From assembly GCA_030540075.1 (NCBI GenBank), contig JAUNWX010000003.1, positions 82,129 to 132,012 of the forward strand: DNA of 49,884 nt. Reading direction: 5' to 3'. Below, piece by piece: positions 1 to 42,095 of the stretch. The translations under genes were made by a program, and so were the position numbers. Numbering within the stretch: the first letter of the stretch is position 1; every line of letters begins with the position of its first letter. The DNA is from Lachnospiraceae bacterium. Lineage in GTDB: Bacteria; Bacillota; Clostridia; Lachnospirales; Lachnospiraceae. The notes below the pieces were generated by a model. That model was not told the DNA's origin and did not search any database. It saw only the letters and a program-made list of their open reading frames with translations.

Positions 1-55
1 AACCCTGGACAAACGGATTAAGAGTCCGCTGCTCTACCAACTGAGCTAAAGGTGC
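1..55 (-). tRNA. tRNA-Lys(CUU), cut by the window edge
   Basis: The 55 bases match positions 99-153, the 5' part of the complete tRNA next to it, base for base. D arm, anticodon arm and the start of the T arm are present. The 3' end lies outside the window. The anticodon loop reads CTCTTAA, giving anticodon CUU. This is the downstream member of a tandem pair on the minus strand. Confidence 0.9.
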
Positions 56-80
56 ATAAAACAGATATGAACTTTTCGAG

Positions 81-153
81 TGCACCTTCAGGGACTTGAA
101 CCCTGGACAAACGGATTAAGAGTCCGCTGCTCTACCAACTGAGCTAAAGGTGC
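81..153 (-). tRNA. tRNA-Lys(CUU)
   Basis: A 73-nt cloverleaf reads on the minus strand: acceptor stem GCACCTT/AAGGTGC, D stem GCTC/GAGC, anticodon stem GCGGA/TCCGT around loop CTCTTAA (anticodon CUU, reading AAG lysine codons), T stem CAGGG/CCCTG with loop TTCAAGT, and discriminator A at 81. CCA is not encoded. A second copy follows 25 nt downstream, so the two are probably co-transcribed and processed. Confidence 0.95.
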
Positions 154-34374: not shown

Positions 34375-35670
34375 TCACATTCGTCCCAGTCGGTACTTGA
34401 AGTCCCGGTAGCCGAAGTGGACGATTTCCTCGGTGCGGCCGTCCGACTTCCGGGTAACAATCGTCGGAAGCGGCATGCCGTTGAAGGTATTGTTTTTGCA
34501 GGTCGTGTAGATCGCCATGTCACCGAAGACGAGGAGGTCCCCGATCTTCGGCTCCGTGTCGAAGCTGTAGTCGCCGATCACATCACCGGCAAGGCAGGTC
34601 GGTCCGGCGAGGCGGACCGTGCAGGCCTTTTCGCCCGCGTCACCAGCCTGAAGCAGCGGCGGGCGGTACGGCATCTCGATGACGTCCGGCATATGACAGG
34701 CCGCACTGGCATCGAGGATCGCGATGGTCGTATCCCCGTTTTTCACGACGTCCAGCACATGGGTCAGCAGGTAGCCGGCATTCAGCGCACAGGCTTCACC
34801 CGGCTCGAGGTAGACCGTCACATCCCAGCTGTCCCGGGCGCGGCGGATGCACTGCTCGAGCAGCGCGATGTCATAGCCCGGGCGCGTGATATGATGCCCG
34901 CCGCCGAAATTGAGCCACTTCATCTTCGGCAGGAGATCGCCGAACTTCTCCGCGACGGCGTCCAGGGTCTCTGCCAGTGCGTCGGCATCCTGCTCACAGA
35001 GCGTATGGAAATGCAGTCCGTCGAGAAGCTGTGGCAGCTCCGGATGTGCCGCCACGGCGGCCTCCCACTGTGCACATGTCGTGCCTAAGCGGCTGCCCGG
35101 CGCGCACGGATCATAGATGGCATGGCCGTCCTGGGTCGAGTGCTCCGGATTGATACGGAGACCGAGACTCTTCCCCGCCGCCTTCGCCTGTGGTCCAAAC
35201 TTGAGAAGCTGCGCCGGCGAATTAAAGACGATGTGGTCCGCATAGCGGATGAGCTCTTCCATCTCGTCCACCCGATATGCGGCACAGAATACGTGCACTT
35301 CTTTTCCCGGCATTTCCTCTGCACCGAGCCGCGCCTCATAGAGGCCGCTCGCCTCGGTCCCCGCGAGATGCGGGGCGAGGATCGGATAGAGGTCGTAATT
35401 ACTGAAGGCCTTCTGCGCGAGGAGGATTCGGCAGCCGGTCCGCTCCGCGAGGGCACCCAGGATCTCAGCATTGGCCTGCAGCTGTGCTTCGTCGAGCAGA
35501 TAGCACGGGGTCGGCAGCGCATGGAAGGCCGCCGGGGTCACGCCACCGATCGACGCAAACGGCGCACGGGTGTCCGGTGTCGTCGCGGATGCCGAATCCA
35601 CTGCTGACTGCGTAGAAAGCTGTTCTGCCGACACTTCTGCATCTGCCTGCGCGCTGTCCCGCGGCTCCAT
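34375..35670 (-). CDS. nspC: Carboxy(nor)spermidine decarboxylase
   Basis: This 431-residue PLP enzyme of the alanine-racemase-fold decarboxylases removes CO2 from carboxyspermidine or carboxynorspermidine. PLP Lys87 lies in LLAQKAFSNYDLYP. Further family segments are RINPEHSTQDGHAIYDP, GLHFHTLCEQ, NFGGGHHITRPGYD and LEPGEACALNAGYL. The first ~45 residues are a low-complexity Ala/Ser/Thr/Asp extension not seen in typical relatives. Its ATG overlaps the stop of the preceding gene by one base (TGATG). It is the last gene of the polyamine operon. The natural substrate depends on which diamine or agmatine its partner uses. Confidence 0.9.
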   Translation of the reverse strand: MEPRDSAQADAEVSAEQLSTQSAVDSASATTPDTRAPFASIGGVTPAAFHALPTPCYLLDEAQLQANAEILGALAERTGCRILLAQKAFSNYDLYPILAPHLAGTEASGLYEARLGAEEMPGKEVHVFCAAYRVDEMEELIRYADHIVFNSPAQLLKFGPQAKAAGKSLGLRINPEHSTQDGHAIYDPCAPGSRLGTTCAQWEAAVAAHPELPQLLDGLHFHTLCEQDADALAETLDAVAEKFGDLLPKMKWLNFGGGHHITRPGYDIALLEQCIRRARDSWDVTVYLEPGEACALNAGYLLTHVLDVVKNGDTTIAILDASAACHMPDVIEMPYRPPLLQAGDAGEKACTVRLAGPTCLAGDVIGDYSFDTEPKIGDLLVFGDMAIYTTCKNNTFNGMPLPTIVTRKSDGRTEEIVHFGYRDFKYRLGRM

Positions 35671-36929
35671 CAGTCTACGAGCGCCGGGTTATGATTCTCG
35701 CGGCGCGGAAGTCCGTACTTGTCGAGGGCGTCGAGGAAAGGATCCGGATTGAACTCCTCGACGGTGTATACGCCCGGCTTGATCCACTCGCCGGTCAGCA
35801 TCATGAGTGCGCCGCACATCGCCGGTACGCCGGTGGTGTAGCTGATCGCCTGGCTGCCGACCTCGCGGTAGCACTCCTGGTGATCGCAGACGTTGTAGAT
35901 ATAGTAGTGCTTCTCCTGGCCATCCTTCTCACCGGTGAAGATGCAGCCGATGTTGGTCTTGCCCTTCGTGCGCGGACCGAGGCTCGCCGGATCCGGGAGG
36001 AGGGCCTTCAGGAACTGAATCGGCACAATTTCCTGACCCTGGAAGCTGATCGGGGTGGTCGACAGCATGCCGACGTCCTCAAGACAGCGCATATGATCAA
36101 GGTAGCTCTGACCGAAGGTCATGAAGAAACGGATGCGCTTCACATCCGGCAGGTTCTTGCCGAGGGACTCGATCTCCTCGTGGTGCAGAAGGTACATGTC
36201 CTTCTCGCCGACCTCGTCGAAGGTATACTCGCGCTTGATGCTCATCGCCGGGATTTCCACCCACTTGCCGTTCTCCATGTAGCTGCCCGGTGCGGATACC
36301 TCACGGAGGTTGATCTCCGGGTTGAAGTTGGTCGCGAAAGCATAGCCGTGGTCACCGCCGTTGCAGTCGAGGATGTCGATGGTATCGATGCGGTCGAACT
36401 CGTGCTTCGCCGCATACGCGCAGTACGCCTGGGTCACGCCCGGGTCAAAGCCGCAGCCGAGCAGCGCGGTGAGTCCAGCCTCCTCGAACTTCTTCTTGTA
36501 AGCCCACTGCCAGCTGTAGTCGAAGTAGGCGGAGAAGCCGGCTTCCTTACAGCGCTTCTCGTAGATCGCGCGCCACTCCGGATCATCGGTGTTCTCCGGC
36601 TCGTAGTTTGCGGTATCCATGTAGTTGACGCCGCAGGCGAGGCAGGCATCCATGATGGTGAGGTCCTGGTACGGAAGGGCGATGTTCATCACGAGGTCCG
36701 GCTGGTAGCTGCGGATCAGTGCGCAGAGCTGCTCCACATCATCGGCATCGACCTGTGCCGTCGTGATCTTCGTTTTCGTCGTCGGTGCGAGCTTCTCCGC
36801 GAGTGCATCACACTTCGACTTCGTGCGGCTGGCAATGCAGAGCTCCGTAAAAACGTCACTCACCTGACAGCACTTGGAAATCGCAACACTGGCTACACCT
36901 CCGCAGCCGATCACTAATACTCTACTCAT
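35670..36929 (-). CDS. Carboxy(nor)spermidine synthase (saccharopine-dehydrogenase family)
   Basis: This 419-residue enzyme is of the CASDH type: it condenses aspartate semialdehyde with a diamine (putrescine to carboxyspermidine) using NAD(P)H. The N-terminal Rossmann motif is VLVIGCGGVASVA. Family segments include NIALPYQDLTIMDACLACGVNYMDTANYE, LLGCGFDPGVTQAYCAYA and ILDCNGGDHG. A related bacterial pathway uses agmatine as acceptor, making carboxyaminopropylagmatine; the sequence alone does not decide. AAAGGAGA lies 9 nt before the ATG. It is 108 nt after speB and overlaps nspC by one base. Confidence 0.88.
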   Translation of the reverse strand: MSRVLVIGCGGVASVAISKCCQVSDVFTELCIASRTKSKCDALAEKLAPTTKTKITTAQVDADDVEQLCALIRSYQPDLVMNIALPYQDLTIMDACLACGVNYMDTANYEPENTDDPEWRAIYEKRCKEAGFSAYFDYSWQWAYKKKFEEAGLTALLGCGFDPGVTQAYCAYAAKHEFDRIDTIDILDCNGGDHGYAFATNFNPEINLREVSAPGSYMENGKWVEIPAMSIKREYTFDEVGEKDMYLLHHEEIESLGKNLPDVKRIRFFMTFGQSYLDHMRCLEDVGMLSTTPISFQGQEIVPIQFLKALLPDPASLGPRTKGKTNIGCIFTGEKDGQEKHYYIYNVCDHQECYREVGSQAISYTTGVPAMCGALMMLTGEWIKPGVYTVEEFNPDPFLDALDKYGLPRRENHNPALVD

Positions 36930-37037: not shown

Positions 37038-37895
37038 TTACTTCTGCAGTGCCAGCAGGAGCTCTCGCAGCACCTTGCAGGCGGTCGCGGTGGACACGCC
37101 GCTCACATCCAGCATCGGGGCGAGCTCGTTCACATCGGCAGCGACGATGTTTGCCTTCGTCGCCGTGCGGATGGCCTCGAGCAGCTGCAGGAAGCTGACG
37201 CCGCCTGCCTCCGGTGTACCGGTGCCCGGGAAGGCCGATGGATCGAGGCAGTCGAGGTCGATGGTCAGGTAGACCGGCGTCCCCTTCTGCTGCAGCTTCT
37301 CCACGAGCTCTGAAAGTCCGGTAAAATCGAACTTGTTCATATCCGTGTGCGCACTTGCGAAGCGGAACTCCTCCCGCTCGCCGCTCCGGATGCAGAACTG
37401 GTGGATGCGTCCATCACCGAGGAGGTCATGACAGCGGCGGAGCACACAGGCGTGGCTCAGCTGCGCGCCGAGGTAGTCGTCCCGCAGGTCGGCATGCGCG
37501 TCGAAGTGAATGATCTCGAGCTCCGGGTACTTCGCGGCGACGGCGCGTACGGCGCCGAGCGTCACAAGGTGCTCACCGCCGAGGAGCAGTGGCAACTTGC
37601 CATCCTGCAGGATCTCCACCGCGCGGGCCTCGATGTCCTGAAGGGCCATCTCACTGGATCCGAAGCAAAGCTCGAGGTCCCCGCTGTCAAATACCTTCGC
37701 ATCCATGAGGTCCCGGTCCTGATATGGACTGTAGGTCTCGAGGCCGAAGCTCTCGTGCCGCATCGCCGCCGGGCCGAAGCGTGCACCCGGTCGGAAGCTC
37801 GTGGTCGAGTCAAACGGCGCACCGTAGAGTACGATGTCTGCTTCCTCGTAGTCTGCGTCACAGCCGATAAAGTTTTCAATATTTGGTGTAAGCAT
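37038..37895 (-). CDS. speB: Agmatinase (ureohydrolase)
   Basis: This 285-residue enzyme of the arginase/agmatinase family hydrolyses agmatine to putrescine and urea. The two-Mn ligands are in GGEHLVTLG, HFDAHADLRDDYLG and TIDLDCLDPSAFPGTGTPEAGG. A role as aminopropylagmatinase is possible given the neighbours. Its ATG overlaps the speE stop by one base (TGATG), with GGAGGG just upstream, so translation is coupled. Confidence 0.9.
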   Translation of the reverse strand: MLTPNIENFIGCDADYEEADIVLYGAPFDSTTSFRPGARFGPAAMRHESFGLETYSPYQDRDLMDAKVFDSGDLELCFGSSEMALQDIEARAVEILQDGKLPLLLGGEHLVTLGAVRAVAAKYPELEIIHFDAHADLRDDYLGAQLSHACVLRRCHDLLGDGRIHQFCIRSGEREEFRFASAHTDMNKFDFTGLSELVEKLQQKGTPVYLTIDLDCLDPSAFPGTGTPEAGGVSFLQLLEAIRTATKANIVAADVNELAPMLDVSGVSTATACKVLRELLLALQK

Positions 37896-38752
37896 CAGTG
37901 TCCCTCCACTTCCCGAAGCATCTCCTCGAGGAAGGCCGGGAGATAAAATGCGCCGACATGCAGGCGGGTGGTGTAGTAACGGGTGCGCATGTTGAGCGAC
38001 TGCCAGGCCGCGGCATCCATGTCGTTGATCGGATGGTACTTCTTGCTGGCGAAGCCGAAGAGCCAGTAGCCTGCGGCGAAGGTCGGGATATGCGCCTGGT
38101 AGACCTTACTGATCGGGAAGGTGCTCGCGATGCGCTGATGACTGCGCTGCATCGCGTTCGCATCCTCGGTGTAGAACGGGCTGCCCTGCTGGTTCACCAT
38201 GATACCGTCCTCCTTCAGTGCCTTGAAGCAGGAGCCGTAGAACTCACGGGTGAAGAGGCCCTCCGACGGTCCGAACGGATCCGAGGAGTCGACGATGATA
38301 AGGTCGTACTCAGCCTCGCACTGGCGAATGAACTTGAGCGCGTTCTCATAGTAGATGTGCACGCGACGATCGTCCATACGGCAGGCATTGCCCGGAAGAT
38401 AGGCACGGCAGGCCTCGATGACCTGCGGGTCCATCTCGACGAGGTCGATGCACTCGACGCGGTCATAGCGGGTGAGCTCCCGCACGACGCCGCCGTCACC
38501 GGCACCGATCACGAGGATGTCCTTCGCGTTCCGGTGGACAGCCATCGGGACGTGAGTGATCATCTCATCGTAGATGAACTCGTCACGCTCGGTCAGCATG
38601 ACGTTACCGTCGAGGGTCAGTACACGGCCAAACTCCGGTGTTTCGAAGATGTCGATGCGCTGGTAGTCGCTCTGCTTCGAGTAGAGCTGACGGTCCACAC
38701 GGATACTGTGCTTCACATCCGGTGTATGAAACTCTGAAAACCACATTTCCAT
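37895..38752 (-). CDS. speE: Polyamine aminopropyltransferase (spermidine synthase)
   Basis: This 285-residue SpeE-type protein has GVVRELTRY with the GAGDGG nucleotide loop, LVEMDPQVIE, YDLIIVDSSDPFGPSEGLF and the gatekeeping-loop region YWLFGFASKKYHP. SpeE enzymes move an aminopropyl group from decarboxylated SAM to putrescine. No SAM decarboxylase (speD) is in the window, while a second aminopropylation route is encoded in the same operon. The start at 38752 has GGAGG 8 nt upstream; a second Met is two codons on. Confidence 0.9.
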   Translation of the reverse strand: MEMWFSEFHTPDVKHSIRVDRQLYSKQSDYQRIDIFETPEFGRVLTLDGNVMLTERDEFIYDEMITHVPMAVHRNAKDILVIGAGDGGVVRELTRYDRVECIDLVEMDPQVIEACRAYLPGNACRMDDRRVHIYYENALKFIRQCEAEYDLIIVDSSDPFGPSEGLFTREFYGSCFKALKEDGIMVNQQGSPFYTEDANAMQRSHQRIASTFPISKVYQAHIPTFAAGYWLFGFASKKYHPINDMDAAAWQSLNMRTRYYTTRLHVGAFYLPAFLEEMLREVEGH

Positions 38753-38777
38753 TTCTCTTTCCTCCTTCCGACGATGC

Positions 38778-40247
38778 TTACTCGGCGATGACATTGAGGT
38801 GCAGGATCTCCGCATCCTCCGGTCCCGTCATGCTGCAGCCCTTCGCCTTCGCGTACTCGATGTAATCGAGGATCTCCGCAGTGATACGCTCGCCAGGTGC
38901 CAGGATCGGAATGCCTGGCGGGTAACACATAACGAACTCACTGCAGACCTTGCCCACGGTTTCACGCAGCGGCAGGCTCTTCTTCGGTGCGTAGAACGCC
39001 TCCTGCGGACTCGCGGCTACCTCCGGGTCGATGTACTCCTGACTGAGCAGGCCCTCGCCGTTCGTATGATAGCGTCGCTTGATTTCCGACAGTGCGCTCA
39101 CGAGACGCTCGATCTCCTGGATACGATCGCCGATGGAGAGGTACGCGAGGATATTGCCGATGTCTCCAAACTCGATCTGAATATCATATTCATCACGCAG
39201 GATGTCATAGACCTCAATGCCCGCGAGTCCGATGTCCAGCGTGTGGACACTGAGCTTCGTGGTATCGAAATCGAAGACAGAATCGCCGTTGCAGAGTTCC
39301 TTACCGAAGGCGTAGTAGCCGCCGACCGCATTGATCTCCTCACGTGCGTACTCGGCCATGTCTGCTACCTGATGGAAGACCTGACGGCCGCGCAGGGCGA
39401 GGTTCCGACGGGAGATGTCGAGGCTCGACATGAGGAGGTAGCTGCCCGAGGTCGTCTGGGTGAGGTTGATGATCTGACGCACGTAGCCTTCATTGACATT
39501 CGGTCCCGTCAGAAGGAGACTCGACTGGGTGAGGCTGCCGCCACTTTTATGCATCGAGACGGAGGCCATATCGGCACCCGCGGCCATCGCAGACACCGGA
39601 AGGCCGCCACCGAAATAGAAGTGGGTGCCATGGGCTTCATCGGCGAGGCAGAGCATGCCGGCGTCATGGGCCATCCGCACGATCGCGCGGAGATCACTGC
39701 AGATGCCGTAGTAGGTCGGGTTGTTCACCAGCACGGCGACCGCCTTCGGATGCTCGGCGATGGCCTTCGCCACCTGCTCCCGCTTCATGCCGAGGCTGAT
39801 GCCGAGGCGCGTATCCACCTCCGGATTTACATAGACCGGCACGGCGCCGCAGAGCACGAGCGCGTTCAGGACGCTGCGGTGTACGTTTCGCGGCAGGATG
39901 ATTTCGTCGCCGCGCTTGCAGGCCGTCAGCACCATGCTCTGCACAGAGCTCGTCGTACCGCCCACCATCAGGAAGGCGTGGGCTGCGCCGAAGGCATCCG
40001 CCGCCAGCTCCTCTGCTTCCCGGATCACCGAGACCGGATGGCAGAGATTATCAAGGGGCTTCATGCTGTTGACGTCGACACCGACGCACTGCTGCCCCAG
40101 GAACGCAGTCAGCTCCGGGTTGCCGCGGCCACGCTTGTGTCCCGGCACATCAAAAGGGACCACACGCATGCGCCGGAAGTTCTCCAGCGCCTCGTGGATC
40201 GGTGCACGCCGCTGATCCAGACGCGTGCGTTTCGCATTTCCATTCAT
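38778..40247 (-). CDS. speA: Arginine decarboxylase (Orn/Lys/Arg decarboxylase class I fold)
   Basis: This 489-residue PLP enzyme of the aspartate-aminotransferase-fold decarboxylases lacks the N-terminal response-regulator-like domain of the E. coli inducible enzymes. DVPGHKRGRGNP, DEAHGTHFYFGG and the PLP Lys in SMHKSGGSLTQSS are diagnostic. Arginine as substrate is inferred from the agmatinase gene in the same operon; lysine or ornithine are alternatives. ACGGAGGT precedes the ATG. It is the first gene of the five-gene operon, preceded by a long leader with an intrinsic terminator. Confidence 0.9.
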   Translation of the reverse strand: MNGNAKRTRLDQRRAPIHEALENFRRMRVVPFDVPGHKRGRGNPELTAFLGQQCVGVDVNSMKPLDNLCHPVSVIREAEELAADAFGAAHAFLMVGGTTSSVQSMVLTACKRGDEIILPRNVHRSVLNALVLCGAVPVYVNPEVDTRLGISLGMKREQVAKAIAEHPKAVAVLVNNPTYYGICSDLRAIVRMAHDAGMLCLADEAHGTHFYFGGGLPVSAMAAGADMASVSMHKSGGSLTQSSLLLTGPNVNEGYVRQIINLTQTTSGSYLLMSSLDISRRNLALRGRQVFHQVADMAEYAREEINAVGGYYAFGKELCNGDSVFDFDTTKLSVHTLDIGLAGIEVYDILRDEYDIQIEFGDIGNILAYLSIGDRIQEIERLVSALSEIKRRYHTNGEGLLSQEYIDPEVAASPQEAFYAPKKSLPLRETVGKVCSEFVMCYPPGIPILAPGERITAEILDYIEYAKAKGCSMTGPEDAEILHLNVIAE

Positions 40248-40657
40248 GTATTACCTCCGTTCGTGGGCCCTTTTCAGACAATAAAAAAAGCAAATTCGCC
40301 ATAGGCAAACTTGCTTCAAAATCAGCTTATGTAAAGACAGCACACTCCCCCCATCGGAGTCCGAATCCGGATGTTCATCTGTCGTTTCAAAAAACTGAGC
40401 GTGTCGAGAGTCTATATAGCAATCTTACTTTTACTACTCTTTATTGACCAATTCACAAGTCTGCGCGTTCAACGTGCAATTTCATGGTTGTAAAGGAACC
40501 AACTTATAAAATCTGAGCTTCTAACTCAATCAATAAGGTAACCGAAGTTACCGATCGGCAGTGGACCCGGCTGTCCGTATGGCCTCAGCCCCGGTGGGGC
40601 GGTCCGTAGGTAAATTGCTTTGAAAAACTCTTACAAACACGATTCGTCTTTCAAATC
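40248..40657 (-). ncRNA. Long structured 5' leader of the polyamine operon
   Basis: From the predicted transcription start near 40657, about 410 nt precede speA. On the minus strand it holds a 5' hairpin (CGATT...AATCG), a GC-rich block at 40560-40608 (GGACCGCCCCACCGGGGC...GGGTCC), a very stable GGTAAC-TTCG-GTTACC tetraloop hairpin, two short reading frames and finally a Rho-independent terminator 35 nt before the start codon. I could not match it to a known riboswitch class by eye. The arrangement indicates premature termination with conditional readthrough. Confidence 0.6.
40283..40314 (-). terminator. Intrinsic terminator (attenuator) in the speA leader
   Basis: On the minus strand GCAAGTTTGCC and GGCGAATTTGC pair around TAT with two internal G-T/mismatch positions, and seven T follow. 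Only 35 nt remain before the speA ATG, too little for a separate promoter, so speA transcription must pass through it. Confidence 0.82.
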
Positions 40658-40663
40658 GAATTG

Positions 40664-40692
40664 ATTATAAACAGATTAAAATTTACTGTCAA
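40664..40692 (-). promoter_or_regulatory. Consensus sigma-A promoter of the polyamine operon
   Basis: On the minus strand, TTGACA (40692-40687) and TATAAT (40669-40664) match consensus exactly with a 17-nt spacer. Such strength suits an operon controlled after initiation. Confidence 0.88.
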
Positions 40693-40820
40693 TTAAAATC
40701 ATGTAATGTCTCCGTAAAAATCCGTCTGTCGGATTTAAAAAGTTGAAGAACACTTGTCTACTTGTATTGTTTTGTGTGCTATGCTATTCGTGTCAGATTT
40801 TTAAATAAGAGGAAATGATT

Positions 40821-41102
40821 ATGAATCCGTATTTTGATCAGAGCATCGCGCTCTGGGTCATCTTCATGAGCGTCATCGCCTTTCTGCTGTATGGGCTCGA
40901 CAAGTATAAGGCGATCCACCATCGCTGGCGGATTCCGGAGCAGACGCTGATCCTGGCGGCGCTCGCCGGTGGTGCCCCGGGCGCCCTGCTCGGGATGCGG
41001 ACGTTTCATCATAAAACGCGGAAGTGGAAGTTCCGTATTCTGGTGTCGCTCGCCACGATTGCGTGGATGGCACTGCTCGGCTACCGCTTCGTCATGCTGT
41101 AG
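40821..41102 (+). CDS. DUF1294 family membrane protein
   Basis: This 93-residue protein is a short DUF1294 protein of unknown function: two to three membrane helices (ALWVIFMSVIAFLLYGLDKYKA; LILAALAGGAPGALLGM; ILVSLATIAWMALLGYRF) with the family motif GGxPGALLGMRTFHHKT-K-FR. Two ATGs lie six bases apart. AAGAGG is 8 nt from the second (40821) and only 2 nt from the first (40815), so the second is preferred. An extended -10 (TGCTATGCT at ~40777) precedes it, divergent to the polyamine promoter. Confidence 0.85.
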   Translation: MNPYFDQSIALWVIFMSVIAFLLYGLDKYKAIHHRWRIPEQTLILAALAGGAPGALLGMRTFHHKTRKWKFRILVSLATIAWMALLGYRFVML

Positions 41103-41129
41103 TGCTGTGGATGAAAAGGAGAAGATAAG

Positions 41130-42095
41130 ATGGAAAAGATAAAGTCAGTTGCGTTACTGGGTGCCGGTTCTGTCGGCTCCTATGTGATTTATGGATTTTC
41201 AGGCTGCCCTGATATCCACTTCAGCCTCGTCGCCGAGGGCGCACGTGCGGAGCGCTTACAGAATGACGGCTGTCTCATCAACGGGGACGTTTATCATCCG
41301 GAGGTTCTGTCGCCTGCCGAAGCACACGGTGTCGACCTGCTGATCGTCGCCCTCAAGTATGGTGCCCTGAAGGAGGCATTGCCCGAGATCCAGGCGGTCG
41401 TCGGCGAAAACACGACGGTCATGAGCCTCATGAACGGTGTCGACAGCGAGGACATCATCGCCTCGGCCATCGGCGCGGAGCACATGATCTACTCGATGAT
41501 CAAGGTGGCGTCGTCCCGCCAAGCTGGCCGGGGCTGCTGCTTCGACCCGGAAACGACCGTCGGGATCATCTATGGGGAGGCCAATGCTCCTTACGAGAGT
41601 GCACGGATCCGCGCGCTGGAGGATGCCTTCGGACGGACCCGCCTGCATACGCGGCACACGGACTGCATCCGCGAGGAGATCTGGAACAAGTTCCGGCTCA
41701 ATGTATGCAACAACCTGCCACAGGCCATCCTCGGTGTCGGCGTGGGCTGCTACCGGGACAGTGCGCACATGAAGGCCATCAGTGATGGACTGCGTCACGA
41801 GGTGGAGCAGATCGCCGAAGCGAAGGGCGTCGACATGGAGAAGCTCGCCATGCTGGACAGCAAGGGCTGTCTGGTGTCCCCTGCCGCGCGCTACTCGACC
41901 CTGCAGGACCTCGATGCCGGACGGCATACGGAGATCGATATGTTTGCCGGTGCGCTGATGCGGATGGGCGAGGAATTCGGCATCCCGACGCCGTTTAACA
42001 CCTGCATTTACCACCTGATCAAGGCACGTGAGGAAAAGAACGACGGACTCTTCGATTACGAGGGGAAGACCGATAAAAGCTGCTGGGCGAAGTAA
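41130..42095 (+). CDS. Ketopantoate reductase family oxidoreductase
   Basis: This 321-residue protein has the N-terminal Rossmann motif VALLGAGSVGSYVI (residues ~7-20) and the ApbA/PanE-type C-terminal helical domain. The conserved Lys is in the EEIWNKFRLNVCNN motif, and YSTLQDLDAGRHTEID is typical. The family reduces 2-dehydropantoate to pantoate with NADPH, but many members act on other 2-keto acids and this one has no pantothenate neighbours. AAGGAGA lies upstream. It follows the DUF1294 gene by 27 nt. Confidence 0.82.
   Translation: MEKIKSVALLGAGSVGSYVIYGFSGCPDIHFSLVAEGARAERLQNDGCLINGDVYHPEVLSPAEAHGVDLLIVALKYGALKEALPEIQAVVGENTTVMSLMNGVDSEDIIASAIGAEHMIYSMIKVASSRQAGRGCCFDPETTVGIIYGEANAPYESARIRALEDAFGRTRLHTRHTDCIREEIWNKFRLNVCNNLPQAILGVGVGCYRDSAHMKAISDGLRHEVEQIAEAKGVDMEKLAMLDSKGCLVSPAARYSTLQDLDAGRHTEIDMFAGALMRMGEEFGIPTPFNTCIYHLIKAREEKNDGLFDYEGKTDKSCWAK

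Follow-up and report, generated by a model that had tools for sequence, protein, structure and literature searches.

The window, i.e., the whole stretch of 49,884 nucleotides analysed here from a Lachnospiraceae bacterium (contig JAUNWX010000003.1), contains a polyamine operon with the gene order speA-speE-speB-CASDH-nspC behind a leader of about 410 nt, which reaches from the promoter side to a terminator just ahead of speA (Table 1). For the speA-type protein, no NCBIfam model scored above its cut-off, and family searches do not settle its substrate, which is likely arginine because an agmatinase gene stands behind speA. The CASDH-like protein reached 398 bits against NF043000, which is under the equivalog cut-off of 800, and the nspC product 411.5 bits against TIGR01047 (cut-off 409.05). 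A DUF1294 gene is situated at window positions 40815-41102, divergent from the polyamine leader, and two tRNA matches, one of them cut by the window end, are found on the minus strand at window positions 1-153.

Table 1. Genes of the polyamine operon and elements of its leader in the window (window positions)
Feature	Position	Strand	Evidence or match
speA-type Orn/Lys/Arg decarboxylase, first operon gene	38778..40247	-	PF01276
speE, spermidine synthase / polyamine aminopropyltransferase	37895..38815	-	NF002010 and TIGR00417, above cut-off
speB, agmatinase	37038..37895	-	TIGR01230, above cut-off
CASDH, carboxy(nor)spermidine-dehydrogenase-like, saccharopine dehydrogenase domains	35670..36929	-	NF043000
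nspC, carboxynorspermidine decarboxylase	34375..35670	-	TIGR01047
Sigma-70 type promoter TTGACA-17-TATAAT	40664..40692	-	12/12 consensus bases
Closing stem, 5' strand: outer GAGU 40630-40627, inner AGCAAUUUAC 40619-40610	40610..40630	-	Flank permutation test
5' domain P1/P2/P3 (= RF02440 SpF59), with ACGGACAG loop and UGCCG (40560-40556)	40555..40605	-	Rfam and alignment A1
P4, variable hairpin, here UUCG-capped	40537..40552	-	Two-sided changes in 5/5 pairs; 85.4% of cells paired
P5 5' strand UUAUUGA (40536-40530) and hairpin P6 (40529-40513)	40513..40536	-	A1 covariation, folding
P7 5' strand (40505-40501) and hairpin P7a (40500-40486)	40486..40505	-	A1 covariation, folding
Switch strand GCAGACUUGU, overlapping the P7 3' strand (40461-40457); can pair alternatively with the terminator 5' arm	40455..40464	-	Pairing test, folding
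P5 3' strand UCAAUAA, long-range partner of 40536-40530	40441..40447	-	A1 covariation, folding
Closing stem, 3' strand: inner GUAAGAUUGCU 40428-40418, outer ACUC 40411-40408	40408..40428	-	Flank permutation test
Terminator 5' arm GCAAGUUUGC; its 10-bp pairing with 40464-40455 is the antiterminator	40305..40314	-	Pairing test, folding
Intrinsic terminator with seven-T run	40283..40317	-	Terminator scan and folding

The earlier note on this DNA had described a perfect promoter, a leader with several strong stems and a terminator with seven T 35 nt before speA, and had read them as an attenuated leader over the polyamine operon; each of these features was recovered, with the five genes lying behind the terminator. 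The promoter matches all 12 consensus bases with a spacer of 17 nt and is the sole promoter-like site that the consensus scan found within 39500-41200; as the scanner also accepts sites with 9/12 bases, of which shuffles of this region contained 1.3 +/- 1.2, the promoter stands out by its perfection, not by its presence. The same scan found no promoter in the interval between the terminator and speA, and transcription would start near 40657. The terminator possesses a stem of 14 pairs (40317-40287) and seven T at 40289-40283, and the ATG of speA (40247) follows 35 nt further; five terminator-like sites were observed, compared to 1.8 +/- 1.2 in shuffles. Both the GC-rich block and the UUCG-capped hairpin (40552-40537) are present, and the folding energy of 40655-40270 amounts to -116.1 kcal/mol (z -3.58), a value equalled by none of 100 shuffles.

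Concerning known RNA families, the segment 40605-40555 (minus strand), which corresponds to the GC-rich block, matches positions 1-54 of Rfam RF02440 (SpF59_sRNA, ldcC RNA); it scores 65.4 bits, where the gathering score is 37.2. This model is 54 nt long and is typed 'Gene; sRNA'. Apart from it, the Rfam search of 40200-40720 at E up to 10 yielded only two snoRNA families far below their cut-offs; there was no match to the SAM-I family, nor to the lysine and cobalamin riboswitch classes. The earlier statement that no known class is recognisable is thus half right, as the first 54 nt of the RNA belong to an already described orphan family; the search with Rfam covariance models that had been proposed as a check returned this one match well above cut-off, to a family typed as an sRNA, and all other families below theirs. 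RF02440 scores in eight of 98 genomes, including that of the window, and also in the control genome of Lactococcus lactis.

In an alignment of the RF02440-scoring genomes, conservation extends in the 3' direction as UUAUUGAUUGAGUUARAAGCUCAAAUUUUAUAAGU and ACUUGUGAAACGGUCAAUAAGAG. A scan of genome contigs for the core pattern found at least 117 stretches, with Paenibacillus, Neobacillus, Bacillus, Kurthia, Blautia, Lachnospira, Faecalibacterium, Gemmiger, Flavonifractor, Acidaminococcus, Phascolarctobacterium and many Oscillospiraceae and Clostridia MAGs among the matches listed. Within a set of 141 rows (L009 repeats L001, and L133 is apparently the same contig as L045), the last conserved block was found with at most 5 edits in 135, the middle block with at most 9 edits in 114, and both in 112. 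The leader RNA is therefore much larger than the 54 nt of Rfam, with a conserved core of about 170 nt inside a closing stem.

Block 6 was found by search string in 134 of 140 rows, of which 106 were left after those more than 93% alike had been dropped; 94 of these constitute alignment A1, the remaining 12 being excluded for unusual length. Of the columns of A1, 21 are invariant and another 49 nearly so, in part because the search pattern imposed it. Helices P1 to P7a and a possible pseudoknot were drawn by hand on this alignment; 94.1% of 3842 cells are paired in this structure, and two-sided changes are found in 24 of the 42 pairs, such that the conservation and covariation for which the earlier note had wished to search relatives' leaders are indeed present. 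The covariation score is 0.210 against 0.100 +/- 0.003 in shuffles (0/500 reach it), and pairing falls to 26-47% when one strand is slid by 1-3 columns. RNAalifold, run unguided, recovered only 14 pairs, chiefly in P1, P2 and P4. The long-range helix P5, inside which P6 and the P7 junction lie, is nearly invariant and its covariation weak, with two-sided changes in two of seven pairs (two cells each). The pairs of the possible pseudoknot between the ACGGAC loop and UGCCG never vary in A1, but this invariance is no evidence, because 81 of the 94 rows were found via an exact pattern that fixed the ACGGACAG...UGCCG letters. A further pseudoknot pair, A35-U47, was dropped, as L135, L140 and L142 have A at the site.

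The closing stem lies outside A1 and joins sides such as CAGAGU...GCAAAUAUU and AAUAUUUGC...ACUCUG. Flanks of 43 and 95 nt, with any pairing allowed, fold with their own partner at a mean of -25.2 kcal/mol, compared to -19.5 +/- 0.38 kcal/mol after permutation among loci (0/2000; 101 of 106 loci), although the permutation counts, here and in the pairing test below, are not independent, as the sequences are related. A hairpin after GGUCAAUAA had also been considered and was replaced by this closing stem.

The RNA is modular, in that either domain can be absent. Among 12 loci brought in solely by the longer covariance model R1 (see below) or by rescoring, CUUGUGAA and UCAAUA are kept in all 12, and CGGACA in eight (in seven within the R1 match, in L167 at the match edge); L161 exhibits an altered loop, and in L163, L170 and L171 the whole 5' (RF02440) domain is absent. 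These last three copies (L163:1501-1626, L170:1273-1404 on the minus strand, L171:550-672) are situated upstream of speA or speD and keep P5-P7. In L170, the closing-stem strand AUGCAAAUAUU leads directly into P4. The sole part of the RNA known to Rfam is thus dispensable in some organisms. Conversely, L017:3898-3990 and L030:491-594 (minus strand) are minimal copies of about 100 nt, which keep the 5' domain, UGCCG and P4 and lack most of P5-P7. The P5-P7 side is the more persistent one among these divergent copies; because of this modularity, the ligand-binding part may lie on either side. An extra hairpin between UGCCG and P4 is found in A1 in L012, L014, L048, L060, L074 and other potA-type loci, and a single long hairpin takes the place of the P7 junction in L046, L058 and L092; such leaders possibly form a sub-type that goes with uptake operons (the L012 stretch stops short of the gene).

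An intrinsic terminator between the motif and the first gene was found in 91 of 127 leaders with a placeable first gene, whereas about 0.8 would be expected from mononucleotide shuffles. By first gene, terminators were found in 40/51 speA, 21/32 speD, 21/22 potA, 8/21 CASDH and 1/1 speE leaders. The 5' arm of many terminators is similar to CACAAGUUG or CGCAAGUUG, complementary to CAACUUGUG on the 3' side of P7; the arm pairing of potA leaders is displaced towards the P7b side. In the window, the antiterminator helix GCAGACUUGU/GCAAGUUUGC comprises 10 bp with -14.2 kcal/mol and is mutually exclusive with both P7 and the terminator. The conserved GGCCAUA together with the window's terminator loop UAUGGC had been considered as a switch and was rejected in favour of the P7/terminator-arm pairing, the terminators listed for other loci being without that loop.

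In the pairing test on 75 de-duplicated leaders, the arm and switch strand of the same locus pair with a mean of -13.2 kcal/mol, compared to -10.2 +/- 0.27 kcal/mol for swaps among all loci and -10.9 +/- 0.24 kcal/mol for swaps within gene classes (0/2000 in either case), and to -6.8 kcal/mol when the switch strand is shuffled. The gain is found in speA (32), speD (20) and potA (20) leaders, and was not found in the two CASDH leaders tested, which are slightly worse than swaps (-12.65 vs. -13.4 kcal/mol). The median rank of the own arm among the 75 arms is 16 and not near 1, because terminator arms resemble one another. As long as the terminator has been made no further than its 5' arm, the predicted states with a free arm (-98.1 kcal/mol) and with the antiterminator (-95.8 kcal/mol) are 2.3 kcal/mol apart; once the full terminator has been made, the antiterminator state (-99.2 kcal/mol) is 14 kcal/mol less stable than the core plus terminator (-113.5 kcal/mol), and the switch would therefore be kinetic and its control co-transcriptional.

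Downstream genes were assigned in the 141 rows on the same strand only, 120-2600 nt downstream of the core, by blastp against the window's proteins plus SpeD. The first recognised gene was speA in 54 rows, speD in 33, a CASDH-type gene in 21 and speE in one. Among the 32 rows without a blastp match, 25 are followed by potA (PotA was called by reading translations, with NCBIfam run on two of the 25), and the other seven run off their contigs (at most 500 nt downstream). A polyamine gene is hence the first recognised gene in 134 of 141 rows, i.e., in every row with enough downstream sequence. In 72 loci the available downstream stretch spans 3 kb or more; potA is the only one of the sought genes there in 18 of them, and CASDH-nspC is present without speA, speD, speE or speB in nine.

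R1, a covariance model of the core that is longer than RF02440, scores in 12 of 61 relatives, in four of which RF02440 had scored; the eight newly found copies are followed by speA (7) or speD (1). All 12 loci that R1 scored and that the Rfam model or the search strings had overlooked precede speA (9) or speD (3); L141 and L143, not caught by the search string, were both scored by R1, as L161 and L160, respectively. SpeE is present in 29 of the 61 relatives (45/98 in the wider set), and all 12 R1-scoring genomes are among these 29. The conservation in relatives that the earlier note had expected thus holds for 12 of 29 SpeE-bearing genomes, but in the other 17 R1 found no copy, including G018, G023 and G028, whose SpeE is 77-81% identical to that of the window. 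In a phylum-wide draw of 398 genomes, R1 scores in 20 and RF02440 in 18; in the family of G389, a match was found in four of 20 genomes. Divergent copies upstream of speD in a Spirochaetes MAG (L068) and a Synergistaceae MAG (L107) would lie outside the Firmicutes if the MAG labels are right. A search of plasmids returned one record, from Paenibacillus cellulosilyticus, whose stretch is without annotation; this copy (L175, NZ_CP054613.1 2204029-2204200) is 85% identical to that of Bacillus testis, and the 2.7-Mb replicon is recorded as a plasmid. A search of phages for the RNA returned no record.

A conserved, covarying aptamer-like core is found in the 5' leader, the expression platform can form mutually exclusive structures (except in the two CASDH-first leaders tested), and the downstream genes share a consistent metabolic theme. 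The sequences support structure, switch and gene theme alike, and the leader is probably a cis-acting, OFF-type riboswitch that terminates transcription in response to a polyamine, most likely spermidine. The identity of the ligand, its binding and the direction of control are inferred. Without ligand, the emerging terminator arm would pair with the P7 3' strand as the antiterminator, and the polymerase would read into speA-speE-speB-CASDH-nspC; with ligand bound, the folded core would hold P7 closed and leave the arm free, whereupon the terminator would form and the operon would be off. Spermidine is the product of both the speA/speE/speB route and the CASDH/nspC route, as well as a substrate of PotABCD, and it is for these genes that it is proposed as the ligand. 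The loci with potA alone (18/72) or with CASDH-nspC only (9/72) make SAM, arginine and agmatine poor common signals and spermidine the best one; among the ligands named in the earlier note, a polyamine accordingly remains logical, but these three are disfavoured. The leader constitutes a concrete and testable candidate, whose core and switching element are both defined and which occurs in many copies, some of them in genera that are known to live in the gut.

A cis-regulatory switch could also respond to another effector, be it putrescine, cadaverine, norspermidine, another metabolite of the pathway or an ion (Mg2+) trading off with polyamines. The genes mark a pathway, not a molecule; speA and speB, which lead to putrescine, are found in many of the operons, and PotABCD imports putrescine too. 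CASDH-nspC yields a carboxylated triamine, from which spermidine or norspermidine is made, and as these genes also occur without speA, speD, speE and speB, the simplest signal common to the loci is the end product, such that another effector, though possible, seems unlikely. We regard it as quite improbable that the core or the antiterminator is stabilised by an RNA-binding protein responsive to polyamines: protein-controlled attenuators likewise combine a large structured leader with a terminator and an antiterminator, but the many invariant and nearly invariant columns of A1 (partly imposed by the search pattern) and the multi-helix core are more aptamer-like.

There is very little to be expected from the reading, following the Rfam label, of a trans-acting small RNA merely placed upstream of polyamine genes. 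RF02440 is typed as an sRNA, and pneumococcal catalogues, in their available parts, list it as sRNA F59/srn235/SN20/Spd_sr49; however, polyamine genes come next in all rows that do not run off their contigs, the terminator arm co-varies with the core, and pneumococcal F59 is, according to the accessible text, oriented like SP0916, which we take to be a lysine/arginine decarboxylase gene. Least probable of all is attenuation through a translated leader peptide, which the earlier note had also put forward. Short start-to-stop frames do exist in the window leader, e.g., MKLHVERADL from 40485, but the distances between conserved blocks take every value modulo 3 (in 101 loci, 45/33/23 and 43/29/29), so that no reading frame is kept, and no conserved leader-peptide frame was found by this spacing analysis of the 101 loci.

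The preferred reading, a polyamine-responsive riboswitch, resembles known systems in its general plan. Lysine and cobalamin riboswitches are large, OFF-type and transcription-terminating, with a multi-helix aptamer and feedback on synthesis and uptake genes. The plan found here is similar (a big multi-helix aptamer-like core, terminator and antiterminator, synthesis and uptake targets), without an Rfam match to either class. The spermidine riboswitch described by Salvail et al. (2023; PMC10853860) is, according to the available part of that paper, a variant of the SAM-I aptamer, whose model comprises 13 representatives from seven named genera and metagenomes; it is tied to speE, speB, speD and ldcC and acts as an OFF switch through spermidine-driven transcription termination. 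In contrast to that class, the leader RNA has no SAM-I match at E up to 10, is also found ahead of potA and CASDH-nspC, and has a wider distribution in the present searches. Likewise structured RNA candidates near polyamine genes are two motifs of Brewer et al. (2021; PMC8632094), namely the potE motif, described from Veillonella and metagenomes, and the odc1 motif, described as a hairpin of alpha-proteobacteria that has a uORF; as described, both would differ from the leader RNA. We consider it an even call whether the leader RNA represents a second, widespread and structurally unrelated class of spermidine riboswitches in Firmicutes, controlling the aminopropyl and carboxyspermidine synthesis routes and PotABCD uptake, with the pneumococcal 'sRNA' F59 as its prematurely terminated leader.

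In the portions accessible of the respective publications, F59 is described as an 82-nt RNA located between SP0915 and SP0916 and oriented like the latter, with SN20 and srn235 as further names (PMC3395615), is listed with the lung profile in a review (PMC4387999), and appears in a 2025 study as candidate M7 (869478-869804), present in 385 genomes, among 76 candidate sRNAs (PMC12323649). A riboswitch role for F59/SpF59 is not proposed in the open-access literature searched, where it figures only as a pneumococcal sRNA candidate, and term look-ups in PMC11109978, PMC6296669, PMC6429828 and PMC2864571 gave no hit; the riboswitch reading, if true, would explain an RNA still tabulated as a candidate sRNA in June 2025. 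Concerning RF02440 itself, the first 54 nt of the leader RNA fit the model well above cut-off, but the model ends at UGCCGA, covers neither P4-P7 nor the closing stem nor the switch, and is typed as an sRNA gene, whereas the genomic layout found here argues for a leader. Its alias 'ldcC RNA' suggests that a gene association had already been noted earlier. The 5' end of the leader RNA is hence already catalogued as an orphan family, and the RNA as a whole would add a new class to a kind of system that is already known.
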